Source: Ectothiorhodospiraceae bacterium (GTDB lineage Bacteria > Pseudomonadota > Gammaproteobacteria > Nitrococcales > AK92). Taken from it: a DNA stretch of 32,556 nucleotides. The position numbers were made by a program, and so were the translations under genes. This document shows, one piece after another, positions 27,586 through 30,895 of the stretch. Positions within the stretch are counted from its first letter, which is position 1; the number at the start of each line of letters is the position of its first letter. The notes beneath the pieces are model-generated. The model ran no database searches, had not been told where the DNA came from, and saw nothing but the letters and a program-made list of their open reading frames with translations. The stretch is from contig JAJUGG010000006.1 in NCBI GenBank assembly GCA_029268285.1, positions 1 to 32,556 on the forward strand, in the 5' to 3' direction.

Positions 27586-27628
27586 ATGCGCCCGGACCTC
27601 TCCATGTGGGGCCGGGCGCATCATTTTT
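27586..27628 (+). terminator. Intrinsic terminator of the RRM gene
   Basis: ATGCGCCCGG (27586-27595) pairs perfectly with CCGGGCGCAT (27612-27621), followed by CATTTTT. This is one of the two strongest terminators in the window. Confidence 0.9.
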
Positions 27629-27765
27629 AAAAGCCCCTAATGATTGTCTCGGTTGATTCCTTACGCCGTCGCTCCCATTAGCCTTGCCTCGTTGCTGGCT
27701 TTTTGGCGTCCGCCGGCTCAGCCTTCTCGTGGCCGCGAAATAATTCTGGCGCGCATTTTGGATCG

Positions 27766-27774
27766 TGCTATAAG
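27766..27774 (+). promoter_or_regulatory. Extended -10 promoter of the GNAT/ATP-grasp genes
   Basis: TGC followed by TATAAG (27769-27774) is an extended -10 element; no good -35 is seen. Initiation about 7 nt downstream falls on the ATG at 27780, so the mRNA may have no leader. Confidence 0.5.
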
Positions 27775-27779
27775 AGCGC

Positions 27780-28268
27780 ATGAGTACAGCCTTCCGCCCC
27801 TCTCAAGACTACGCTATCCGCGCTGCAACCCCGCTTGACCTCGATGCCTTGATGCGACTGGAAGAGGCGTGTTTTAACAGCGACCGGATTAGCCGCCGCA
27901 GCATGCGCCAGATGCTCGCGCGAGCGCATGCGCGGACCTTGGTGTGCGAGTGGCAGGGGCGCCTGCTCGGCTATGTGTTGCTCTTGTTTCGGCGCGGCTG
28001 GGAAGGGGCGCGCATATATTCCATTGCAACAGCCGCGGAAGCGCGTCGCACCGGTGTGGCCGAAGCCCTGGTGCGCGCTGCGGAAGCCGAGGCGCGACAG
28101 CGGCAGTGCCGCTTCATTCGGCTGGAAATTCGTAAGGACAATCCGGGGTCGATCGGCCTGTTCGGCAAGCTCGGTTATCAACCTCGGGGTGAGTATCCCG
28201 CCTACTACGAGGACGGGCAGGACGCGCTACGTTTTCACAAAGAGCTCGTGTCACCAGATCAAGACTAA
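27780..28268 (+). CDS. GNAT family N-acetyltransferase
   Basis: The 162-residue protein has the GNAT fold of the RimI-like group: the N-terminal AIRAATPLDLDALMRLEEAC, the beta4 segment ARIYSIATAAEARRTGVA with the acetyl-CoA pyrophosphate loop RRTGVA, a following helix EALVRAAEAEARQRQ, and the C-terminal NPGSIGLFGKLGYQPRGEY. It would transfer an acyl group from acyl-CoA to an amine; the substrate is unknown. It lies 18 nt before the ATP-grasp ligase gene and is likely in one operon with it, so it probably modifies the same metabolite or protein. Only a weak AAGAG precedes its ATG. Confidence 0.88.
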   Translation: MSTAFRPSQDYAIRAATPLDLDALMRLEEACFNSDRISRRSMRQMLARAHARTLVCEWQGRLLGYVLLLFRRGWEGARIYSIATAAEARRTGVAEALVRAAEAEARQRQCRFIRLEIRKDNPGSIGLFGKLGYQPRGEYPAYYEDGQDALRFHKELVSPDQD

Positions 28269-28286
28269 GACGGTAAGCAGCAGTCG

Positions 28287-29783
28287 ATGAGCAACGTTTA
28301 CATCGTCATTGAGGATTCCAAGGACTGGAAGCCTTACTATCCCAGCGCCAACGTGGTGACCGCACAGGAATACCTGTTCGGGGAGCATAGCGAGGCGCCC
28401 GCGGGCACCCGAGTCATCAACCTGTGCCGCGGCTATAAGTATCTCTCGCTGGGCTACTATTGCTCGTTGCTGGCGGAGGCCCGCGGCCACCGGGTCATTC
28501 CGTCCGTGCGCGGCATCAACGATTTGTCGCGCAAGGCGATTTACAGCGTCGGCATCGAGGACCTGGACGCCTTGGTCGATCAGGGGCTGGCCGCCGAGGA
28601 CAATCCCGACACGGATACTTTTACGCTAGACGTTTTCTTCGGTCGCAGCGCCTATCCGCAGTGGGCGGAGTTCGCGCGGCAGTTGTTCGAGACTTTTCTC
28701 AGCCCGCTGCTGCAAGTGGAGTTCCGCCGCAGCGGCGGGCGTTGGCGAATCCGTAAGATTCGCAGCAAGGCGCTGCACAAGCTGGACGAGCGCCAGGAGG
28801 ATTTGTTCGCCGAGGCGCTGGATGCCTTCAGCCGCTATGTCTGGCGCAAGAAAGCGCGGCGCCCGTCGCGCTACGATTTGGCCATCCTCTACAACCCGGA
28901 CGAAGCCTTGCCGCCGTCCGACCGTCGCGCGCTGGCAAACTTCGTGCGCGTCGGTCGCAGCCTGGGCTTGGATGTCGAGCTGATTCAGAAGCGCGACTAT
29001 GCCTCGCTGGCCGAGTACGACGCGCTCTTCATTCGCGAGACCACGGCCGTTTCCAACCACACCTATCGGTTTGCCAAGCAGGCCGAGCGGGAGGGCTTGG
29101 TCGTGATCGACGATCCGACCTCGATCATGCGCTGCACGAACAAGGTCTACTTGGCCGACTTGCTGCGCAAGAACAAAGTGCCAGCGCCGAAGACGCGCAT
29201 TCTGCAGCGTGGCGACCTCAAGCGTCTGGACGCCGTGGTTACCGAGCTCGGGCTGCCCATGGTTCTGAAAATCCCGGACGGCTCGTTTTCGCGGGGCGTG
29301 ATGAAAGTCGGAAACGAGGACGAGCTGCGCGCGGCTGCCGCAGAGCTTCTGAAGAAATCGGATTTGATCCTCGCTCAGGAGTATCTGTACACCGAGTACG
29401 ACTGGCGCATCGGCGTGCTCAACAAGAAACCGATCTTCGCCTGCCAATACTTCATGAGCAAAGGCCACTGGCAGATTTACGAACACAAGCCTGGCGGCAG
29501 CGTGAAGGAGGGGCGATTCAAGACCTTTCCGACCGCAGAGGCCCCGCCGGCCGTAGTCAGGACCGCAGTCAGGGCGGCAGGACTGATCGGCGACGGGCTG
29601 TACGGCGTGGATATCAAGCAGAATGCGAAGGGCTGTTACGTCATCGAAGTGAACGACAACCCCAACATCGATGCCGGCGTCGAGGACAAGTACCTCAAGG
29701 ACGAGCTGTATCGCATCGTGCTGGAAGAGTTCATTCGCCGACTGGACCTGAAGCGCAAGCCTCACCGCGGCGGTGGTAGCTGA
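28287..29783 (+). CDS. RimK-like ATP-grasp ligase with RLAN N-terminal domain
   Basis: The 498-residue protein has an N-terminal domain (about 1-200) matching the RimK-like ATP-grasp N-terminal (RLAN) type: YIVIEDSKDWKPYYPSANVV, GTRVINLCRGYKYLSLGYYC. A RimK-type ATP-grasp domain follows (about 210-485): TTAVSNHTYRFA, DPTSIMRCTNKVYLADLL, PMVLKIPDGSFSRGVMKV with ATP-binding Lys328, ILAQEYLYTEYDWRIGVL, and the metal-binding EVNDNPN (454-460). ATP-grasp ligases activate a carboxylate as acyl phosphate and join it to an amine. RimK itself adds glutamates to ribosomal protein S6, but the RLAN group is predicted to make or modify peptides whose identity is unknown. SD signal before ATG 28287 is weak. 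Confidence 0.9.
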   Translation: MSNVYIVIEDSKDWKPYYPSANVVTAQEYLFGEHSEAPAGTRVINLCRGYKYLSLGYYCSLLAEARGHRVIPSVRGINDLSRKAIYSVGIEDLDALVDQGLAAEDNPDTDTFTLDVFFGRSAYPQWAEFARQLFETFLSPLLQVEFRRSGGRWRIRKIRSKALHKLDERQEDLFAEALDAFSRYVWRKKARRPSRYDLAILYNPDEALPPSDRRALANFVRVGRSLGLDVELIQKRDYASLAEYDALFIRETTAVSNHTYRFAKQAEREGLVVIDDPTSIMRCTNKVYLADLLRKNKVPAPKTRILQRGDLKRLDAVVTELGLPMVLKIPDGSFSRGVMKVGNEDELRAAAAELLKKSDLILAQEYLYTEYDWRIGVLNKKPIFACQYFMSKGHWQIYEHKPGGSVKEGRFKTFPTAEAPPAVVRTAVRAAGLIGDGLYGVDIKQNAKGCYVIEVNDNPNIDAGVEDKYLKDELYRIVLEEFIRRLDLKRKPHRGGGS

Positions 29784-29872: not shown

Positions 29873-30895
29873 ATGCTCGATTCGCTGACGTCAGCCTTCG
29901 CAGCCTTCGGCGCGGCTGCGCTCGTTATCGCCGTAGCCGGCACCTATCTTGCGCGCTATGCCGATGAGCTGGCCGACCGAACCGGCCTCGGAGAAGCGAT
30001 CATCGGCACCTTCTTGCTCGCTTCAGCCACCTCTCTGCCGGATTTTGCCGCTACCTTGAGCGCGGCCGTCGATGCTCGTCCCGAACTCGCCATGAGCAAT
30101 GTCATGGGCAGCATGGCGGTCAATTTGCTGTTTCTCGGCATTGCCGACATCAGTTACCGTGAGGCCAATCTCGAGCACGCGGCCGCTTCTTCCTCCAACC
30201 TAGCGCAAGCGGCGCTGCTCATCGCGCTGTTGAGCGTTCCTCTGATCGCTGCTCAAGCGCCGGAGGTTGCGCTGTTCGGCGTTCACCCCGCGTCGCCGCT
30301 GATTGTGGCGGCTTATGTGTTTGGATTCGTATTGATCCGCCGGACCCAGGAATCCCCGATGTGGTTCCCGCGACGCACGCCTCTGACAGTCATCGATAGG
30401 CCAGCCTCGGAAGAACAGGCGGGCTCGGTCGCGCCTCTGTGGCTAAAGTTCCTGGCGCTGACCCTTGTGACGGCGCTCGCGGGCTGGCTGCTGATGGAAG
30501 CGGTTAAAACGATTGCCGATCGCACAGCGCTGTCGGAGAACGTCGCCGGGGGCGTGCTGACGGCCGTGTCCACATCCTCGCCCGAGCTGGTGACGACGCT
30601 GGCAGCCATCCGAGCAGGGGCGTTGACGCTCGCCGTCAGCAACATCATCGGCACCAACTGCTTCAACATTCTGGTGATTGCCGCCGCCGATCTGGCCTAC
30701 CGCCAAGGTTCGATCTATCACGACATCTCGTCATTGCAGGTGGTTTGGGGGCTGGTGGCAATTCTGATGACCGCCGTGTTGCTGCTGGGCATGGTTCGCC
30801 GCCAAGTGGGCGGCTTCGGCAACATCGGTTTCGAGAGCGTTGTCATCCTCGCGGTCTACACGATCACCGTCATACTGGTGATCTTGAACGCTTAG
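29873..30895 (+). CDS. CaCA family cation/Ca2+ antiporter
   Basis: The 340-residue membrane protein has two halves of about five helices, each with an alpha repeat: GTFLLASATSLPDFAATLSA with SNVMGSMAVNLL, and GGVLTAVSTSSPELVTTLAA with SNIIGTNCFNIL. This is the sodium/calcium exchanger fold. A hydrophilic loop (about 165-195) separates the halves. The first repeat has Asp where the second has the usual metal-binding Glu. ATG 29873 has no Shine-Dalgarno; TAGGAGG lies 45 nt away, and a stem (GCGGCGA against TCGCCGC) sits between. It follows the ATP-grasp gene by 89 nt, and its stop overlaps the converging YkgJ stop. Confidence 0.87.
   Translation: MLDSLTSAFAAFGAAALVIAVAGTYLARYADELADRTGLGEAIIGTFLLASATSLPDFAATLSAAVDARPELAMSNVMGSMAVNLLFLGIADISYREANLEHAAASSSNLAQAALLIALLSVPLIAAQAPEVALFGVHPASPLIVAAYVFGFVLIRRTQESPMWFPRRTPLTVIDRPASEEQAGSVAPLWLKFLALTLVTALAGWLLMEAVKTIADRTALSENVAGGVLTAVSTSSPELVTTLAAIRAGALTLAVSNIIGTNCFNILVIAAADLAYRQGSIYHDISSLQVVWGLVAILMTAVLLLGMVRRQVGGFGNIGFESVVILAVYTITVILVILNA

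Follow-up and report, generated by a model that had tools for sequence, protein, structure and literature searches.

A two-gene GNAT and RLAN ATP-grasp ligase locus without the usual C39 peptidase, a candidate source of an N-acylated small peptide

Introduction

In an Ectothiorhodospiraceae bacterium, a gene for a GNAT acetyltransferase stands directly ahead of a gene for a RimK-like ATP-grasp ligase with an RLAN N-terminus. What might these two genes make together, and which of the genes found around their relatives belong with them? Roughly one in five of the genomes that we sampled from the phylum has an RLAN ligase, with no product found for any such enzyme. In the literature searched, we found no substrate, product, phenotype or experimental paper for RLAN proteins, and the sole paper found for DUF3335, the C39-like domain of their usual neighbor, was a classification. 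Iyer and colleagues reportedly predicted in 2009 (Mol Biosyst 5:1636) that RLAN ligases with GNAT/C39 proteins are peptide makers. With two genes and no peptidase, the locus described here is among the most compact forms on a chromosome, which makes it a good place to find the reaction.

By the window we mean the whole stretch of DNA analysed (32,556 nucleotides; contig JAJUGG010000006.1 of assembly GCA_029268285.1). It is contig C6 of a host genome of 3.10 Mb in 320 contigs that is 92% complete.

Results

A GNAT gene precedes an RLAN-RimK ligase gene

27780..28268, + strand: GNAT N-acetyltransferase, 162 aa, RimI/Ard1-like, without a C39 domain (PF00583, nearest structures, motifs)
28287..29783, + strand: RLAN-RimK ATP-grasp amide ligase, 498 aa (PF14401, PF08443, model, fold match)
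28362..28817, + strand: RLAN domain, aa 26-177, N-terminal to the complete RimK-like enzyme (PF14401)
28872..29756, + strand: predicted complete RimK/LysX/ArgX-like ATP-grasp unit, ~aa 196-490 (catalytic K286, K328, R374, D442, E454, N456; fold match)

An earlier, sequence-only reading of this DNA had placed a GNAT gene 18 nt ahead of an RLAN/RimK-like ligase gene, and its coordinates, strand and spacing were all correct: the GNAT ORF runs from an ATG at 27780 to a stop at 28268, and the ligase ORF from an ATG at 28287 to a stop at 29783. The GNAT matched Pfam PF00583 (1.3e-17), while the ligase matched RLAN (PF14401; 1.1e-49 over aa 26-177; 168.3 bits vs a cut-off of 25) and RimK (PF08443; 6.8e-10 over aa 285-462). 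With its RLAN domain, intact ATP-grasp residues and adjacent family-type GNAT, the pair qualifies as a member of the RLAN amidoligase system (PF14401).

A scan for promoters and terminators gave nothing above chance and no full sigma-70 site. The sequence TATAAG ends 5 nt upstream of the GNAT start codon (window 27769-27780) and, given this position, the GNAT-ligase message could be leaderless. By eye, a GC-rich inverted repeat that leads into a run of T, with a loop too long for the scan, was seen after the gene for an RRM protein (window 27586-27629); this repeat is likely the terminator of that gene, dividing it from the GNAT operon.

Downstream, a CaCA antiporter gene begins at an ATG at 29873, 89 nt past the ligase. 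The sequence-only reading had this spacing right and suggested that the antiporter might belong to the unit. Among the loci compared, no CaCA gene lay near the pair in any locus outside the host genome, and we rejected the antiporter as a member. The flanking genes scanned matched only the Na_Ca_ex, RRM, DUF938, CxxCxxCC and histidine kinase families; a PF05618 (RimB/RloA-type) protease was not found among them, and by that sign the locus is not an Rlo/Rim operon.

The ligase is predicted to contain a complete RimK-like enzyme

Across an alignment of 38 ligases spanning Gammaproteobacteria, Alphaproteobacteria, Bacteroidota and others, K286, K328, R374, D442, E454 and N456 were invariant, as were the motifs CTNK (283-286), DWR (372-374) and HWQ (394-396). 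An intact Lys328 and EVNDNPN motif had been noted earlier, and both are as described (E454-V-N456-D-N-P-N), with K328, E454 and N456 among the invariant positions. A fold search with a predicted model of the whole ligase (mean pLDDT 86.9) returned a match list filled by ATP-grasp structures, in which residues 196-486 superposed on RimK/LysX/ArgX (Z 27-28; rmsd 2.3-2.8); the best structural matches were RimK, including a RimK complex with RpsF, and LysX/ArgX. As modelled, residues 196-486 are a complete RimK/LysX/ArgX-like enzyme, to which RLAN is an added N-terminal domain. Membership of the GAK system was rejected, the match to its ATP-grasp family (TIGR04356) being far below cut-off (24.7 vs 300 bits).

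The GNAT resembles N-alpha-acetyltransferases

With a predicted model of the GNAT (mean pLDDT 93.3), the fold search ranked RimI and Ard1 first, and the nearest solved structures were RimI, Ard1 and Naa10. A family profile search placed double-GNAT N-terminal acetyltransferase entries and archaeal Ard1 at the top, followed by Naa10 and RimI. The window GNAT is homologous to the GNATs of its relatives (56% identity to the closest). Its CoA loop reads R89-R-T-G92-V-A94; E116, Y142, Y143 and then A149 were invariant in 40 aligned sequences, in which the YY-x-D-x-x-x-A motif as a whole was invariant or nearly so, and alignments showed this region to be common to the GNAT, SSO0209 and Ard1. The motifs and the profile and fold rankings point to an amino-acid or peptide alpha-amine as the probable acceptor.

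Most relatives have a Tyr at GNAT position 128, which, going by RimI, is likely the general acid. The window GNAT has Phe128 instead, as do 5 of 39 aligned relatives (6/40 with the window's own), a caveat that counts against the peptide-making model discussed below.

The GNAT-ligase pairing is conserved across genomes

A phylum sample of 299 genomes was profile-searched for RLAN and DUF3335. RLAN was found in 56 and DUF3335 in 46, with 45 holding both (Fisher p ~1e-41, shared ancestry ignored). By coordinates, DUF3335 adjoined RLAN in 43 of the 45 shared genomes (exceptions G045 and G232), and a GNAT alone stood beside RLAN in all ten sampled RLAN genomes without DUF3335, the window's own excluded. 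The sequence-only reading had claimed that RLAN ligases are linked with GNAT proteins and had tied its fate to a conserved linkage; the phylum sample bears the claim out. Across all fetched loci (whose counts include near-copies from Marinomonas and some genomes twice), the link persisted with the GNAT upstream on the same strand, upstream on the opposite strand or downstream. Because the pairing is conserved across phyla, chance does not account for it.

There were exceptions. At L164 (genome G232), RLAN had no adjacent GNAT and a GNAT-C39 protein lay on another contig; L057 had no adjacent GNAT, with the end of a C39 domain 5.5 kb upstream at the locus edge; and on the P. aeruginosa plasmid pZYPA1927 (L159) no GNAT lay within ~5 kb of the RLAN-RimK gene. 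These RLAN genes without an adjacent GNAT count against a model in which GNAT and ligase make a peptide together. The plasmid gene (L159:4911-6500) is near genes for a glutamate/aspartate ABC transporter, pagP, an SDR and an aminotransferase.

The C39 peptidase appears to be a recurrent accessory

Most relatives encode a single protein in which a DUF3335 (C39-like) domain comes after the GNAT. The C39 domain of these relatives keeps the conserved Cys and His, and the C39-type cysteine peptidase looks active. No DUF3335 was found in the window GNAT (162 aa) or elsewhere in the 92%-complete host genome; the wider Peptidase_C39_2 family gave four hits in this genome, three of them above cut-off. 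DUF3335 was missing from 11 of the 56 sampled RLAN genomes (about a fifth), and we treated the GNAT-C39 fusion as usual rather than universal and not as defining for the RLAN system.

The closest loci differ in this respect. A sister genome (L041; ligase 75% identical) carries the GNAT-C39 fusion, and in another locus (L042; ligase 72% identical) the GNAT ends at a stop codon and what is left of C39 is broken up across other frames (tblastn; L042:5008-5969). Between the GNAT and ligase genes of the window no trace of C39 was found. In large genomes with two RLAN copies, one copy can be paired with a GNAT-C39 protein and the second with a lone GNAT (L163 and L160 of G101). Extra DUF3335 genes unlinked to RLAN were seen at L133 and L131 (genomes G236 and G313), where a linked copy is present in the same genomes.

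On a ligase tree of 76 rows, the fused/unfused label needs 9-13 changes, with a few labels resting on short loci and L042 counted as fused. Because of these changes, the C39 peptidase is probably an accessory that has been lost or gained repeatedly, on some ten occasions, with the GNAT retained.

GCS2 replaces the GNAT in one clade, and phage-like contigs carry a bare pair

At six loci, a GCS2 carboxylate-amine ligase was found in place of the GNAT. In Roseivirga, a related Cytophagia MAG, Denitrovibrio and a Myxococcales MAG, genes for C39, RLAN ligase and GCS2 stand in a row without a GNAT, and a protein of the N-formylglutamate amidohydrolase family follows the row in all but the Myxococcales locus. 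Loci of this kind include L088:5273-9406, L103 and L083, with the amidohydrolase in L088 and L103. The exchange thus extends over Bacteroidota, Deferribacterota and Myxococcota, and the ligases of the GCS2-type loci group as a single clade in the tree (100 SH-aLRT). The GNAT and GCS2 modules are thus alternatives around one ligase, and the exchange suggests that both may work at one and the same end of a shared type of molecule; the amidohydrolase hints at possible N-acyl-glutamate-like chemistry. The host genome has one GCS2 match, unlinked and at a contig end.

On four viral contigs, the GNAT gene overlaps an ATP-grasp gene of the RLAN-ligase clade, and both RLAN and C39 are absent:

L153:4555-5867, L155:4541-5861, L156:4532-5939 and L157:4621-5882: overlapping GNAT and RLAN-less ATP-grasp genes on phage-like contigs

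The aligned ATP-grasp proteins from these pairs retain their catalytic residues. Because the phage pairs keep both genes without RLAN and C39, they suggest that GNAT plus ATP-grasp may be the functional core. Several other viral contigs carry the ligase alone, and these ligase-only copies count against the GNAT-ligase peptide model.

The L153 pair is surrounded by baseplate, tail and integrase genes; it sits between the tail genes and the integrase, a typical cargo position. Elsewhere, an RLAN-less ATP-grasp ligase without a GNAT lies between the terminase large subunit and portal genes (L152:4977-5912), and on an 83-kb viral contig a ligase has only the first ~80 aa of RLAN (L158:4989-6149), a domain that most phage homologues lack. 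With the L153 ligase as query, no match was found among GenBank phages or PHROG families. In the GNAT tree, the phage GNATs fall near those of Cysteiniphilum/Thiotrichales, on long branches and with weak support.

Discussion

We give about an even chance to the view that the two genes are a small operon making an N-acylated (N-acetylated) small peptide. The ATP-grasp half would turn a carboxylate into an acyl phosphate and then couple it to an amino acid's amine; our first guess for this amino acid is an acidic one, such as glutamate, because the nearest relatives of the enzyme are ligases of glutamate or aminoadipate. The GNAT would place an acetyl group on an alpha-amine, either that of the peptide or that of the amino acid used as substrate, RLAN would probably bind a substrate or partner, and the C39 peptidase of most relatives would supply an optional turnover or transfer step that is missing here. 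N-acetyl-peptide chemistry is precedented by Ngg, a single GNAT-family protein that N-acetylates one glutamine and joins another to give an N-acetyl dipeptide (PMC8070244). The sequence-only reading, in which the ligase makes an amide and the GNAT acylates it, fits the family relationships and the catalytic residues, which are all kept; from these we infer the reaction, substrates, step order and product of the pair. As a whole that reading stands in part, having missed both the C39 domain fused to the GNAT in relatives and the GCS2 version.

The main rival to N-acetyl-peptide synthesis is protein modification, which we regard as possible yet rather unlikely. Here the ligase would add amino acids to the end or a side chain of a specific protein, much as RimK does on S6, the GNAT would cap the tail or target, and C39 would remove it. 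Since RimK and LysX/ArgX modify either the C-terminal ends of proteins or a carrier protein, the ligase fold would suit a protein substrate just as well; the best fold matches of the ligase are RimK (including its complex with RpsF) and LysX/ArgX, whose carrier-protein substrate is LysW. The Cys and His kept in the relatives' C39 domain also favor this idea, phage copies found by terminase and portal genes could have proteins of the phage or its host as targets, and Rim and Rlo loci couple a RimK-like ligase to a peptidase (excerpt of PMC12239564). However, no conserved target gene stands beside the pair, the ligase scores far under the RimK equivalog cut-off (NF007764; 31.9 vs 331 bits), and the host genome has a separate, genuine RimK-domain protein (contig C7; 225.7 bits). 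These last two facts bear equally on the proposal that the pair are housekeeping duplicates, with the GNAT a RimI modifying ribosomal protein S18 and the ligase a RimK modifying S6. While RimI and RimK are indeed the closest families, the GNAT too falls below its cut-off (TIGR01575; 70.6 vs 86.4 bits) and a true RimI is encoded on contig C3 (126.9 bits); this identity was rejected and is nearly refuted, leaving it extremely improbable. A housekeeping reaction, which the sequence-only reading had named as fatal to its case, was thus not what we found.

Two further possibilities were weighed. The GNAT could be a self-protection or detoxification enzyme that inactivates something toxic made by the ligase, whether its product or a by-product, rather than a biosynthetic step. 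GNATs that acetylate toxic metabolites are known beside biosynthetic genes, and weak profile matches to the AAC and ArsN families lean this way, but profile and fold searches put peptide N-alpha-acetyltransferases first and the YY-x-D-x-x-x-A motif hardly varies, making this role improbable. We consider it very improbable that the locus is a graspetide-like RiPP system, in which the ATP-grasp enzyme would cross-link a precursor, C39 cut its leader and the GNAT acetylate its N-terminus, as in microviridins. Microviridin-type pathways do pair ATP-grasp ligases with a GNAT or C39 peptidase; yet the 18 and 89 nt of non-coding DNA flanking the ligase are too short to hold a precursor gene within the operon, clustering of neighbors across lineages (ORFs of at least 80 aa) gave no precursor-like gene, and the ligase groups with RimK/LysX.

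The comparison separates parts that look like core (GNAT and ATP-grasp) from parts that look optional (C39, RLAN). A bolder extension of N-acylated peptide synthesis, which we advance tentatively and hold doubtful, is that GNAT and ATP-grasp form a self-contained module for a new N-acylated peptide metabolite or modification, with C39, RLAN and GCS2/N-formylglutamate amidohydrolase as interchangeable add-ons and the bare pair of temperate phages as cargo altering host or virion. The phage version is the least-known part of the picture. What may be new here is that the peptidase has been lost repeatedly, that the loci with GCS2 in exchange for the GNAT make up a single clade, and that temperate-phage-like contigs hold the bare pair.

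Among known systems, RimK, the S6 glutamate ligase (PDB 7qyr, 5zct), shares the ATP-grasp fold and catalytic residues (Z 28 over 196-486), whereas the window ligase has the extra RLAN domain, 22% identity and a separate RimK in its genome. LysX/ArgX (PDB 3vpd, 3vpb) likewise share fold and catalytic core but lack RLAN, and no LysW partner was seen near the pair. The GNAT has the fold and the LE(V/I)R and YY...A motifs of RimI/Ard1 N-alpha-acetyltransferases; unlike them, it is ligase-linked, and it falls below the RimI cut-off in a genome with its own RimI. NAGGN synthetase (Ngg, TIGR03103, with AsnO) resembles the pair in combining GNAT and ATP-dependent ligase chemistry, which in Ngg gives an N-acetylated dipeptide, but Ngg is a single protein with an amidotransferase partner. 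Membership was rejected: the window has two separate genes, the GNAT scored far below the TIGR03103 cut-off (30.7 vs 569 bits), and the ligase was absent among the matches listed. Rlo/Rim operons (RloA-RloB-RloC, RimB-RimK) also join a RimK-like ligase to a peptidase; theirs is retropepsin-type rather than C39, and the excerpt of PMC12239564 mentions no RLAN or GNAT. Closest is the RLAN ATP-grasp/GNAT-C39 neighborhood (PF14401 + PF11814), predicted for peptide synthesis by Iyer et al., 2009, as cited in excerpts of PMC10318531 and PMC12239564, the former of which credits the DUF3335-GNAT fusions to the same work. The window shares its RLAN domain, RimK-type ATP-grasp and GNAT alongside, and differs in having the usual C39-like (DUF3335) fusion neither at the locus nor elsewhere in the host genome. 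The RLAN/GNAT/C39 association was thus already predicted, and the window locus is a peptidase-less member of it.
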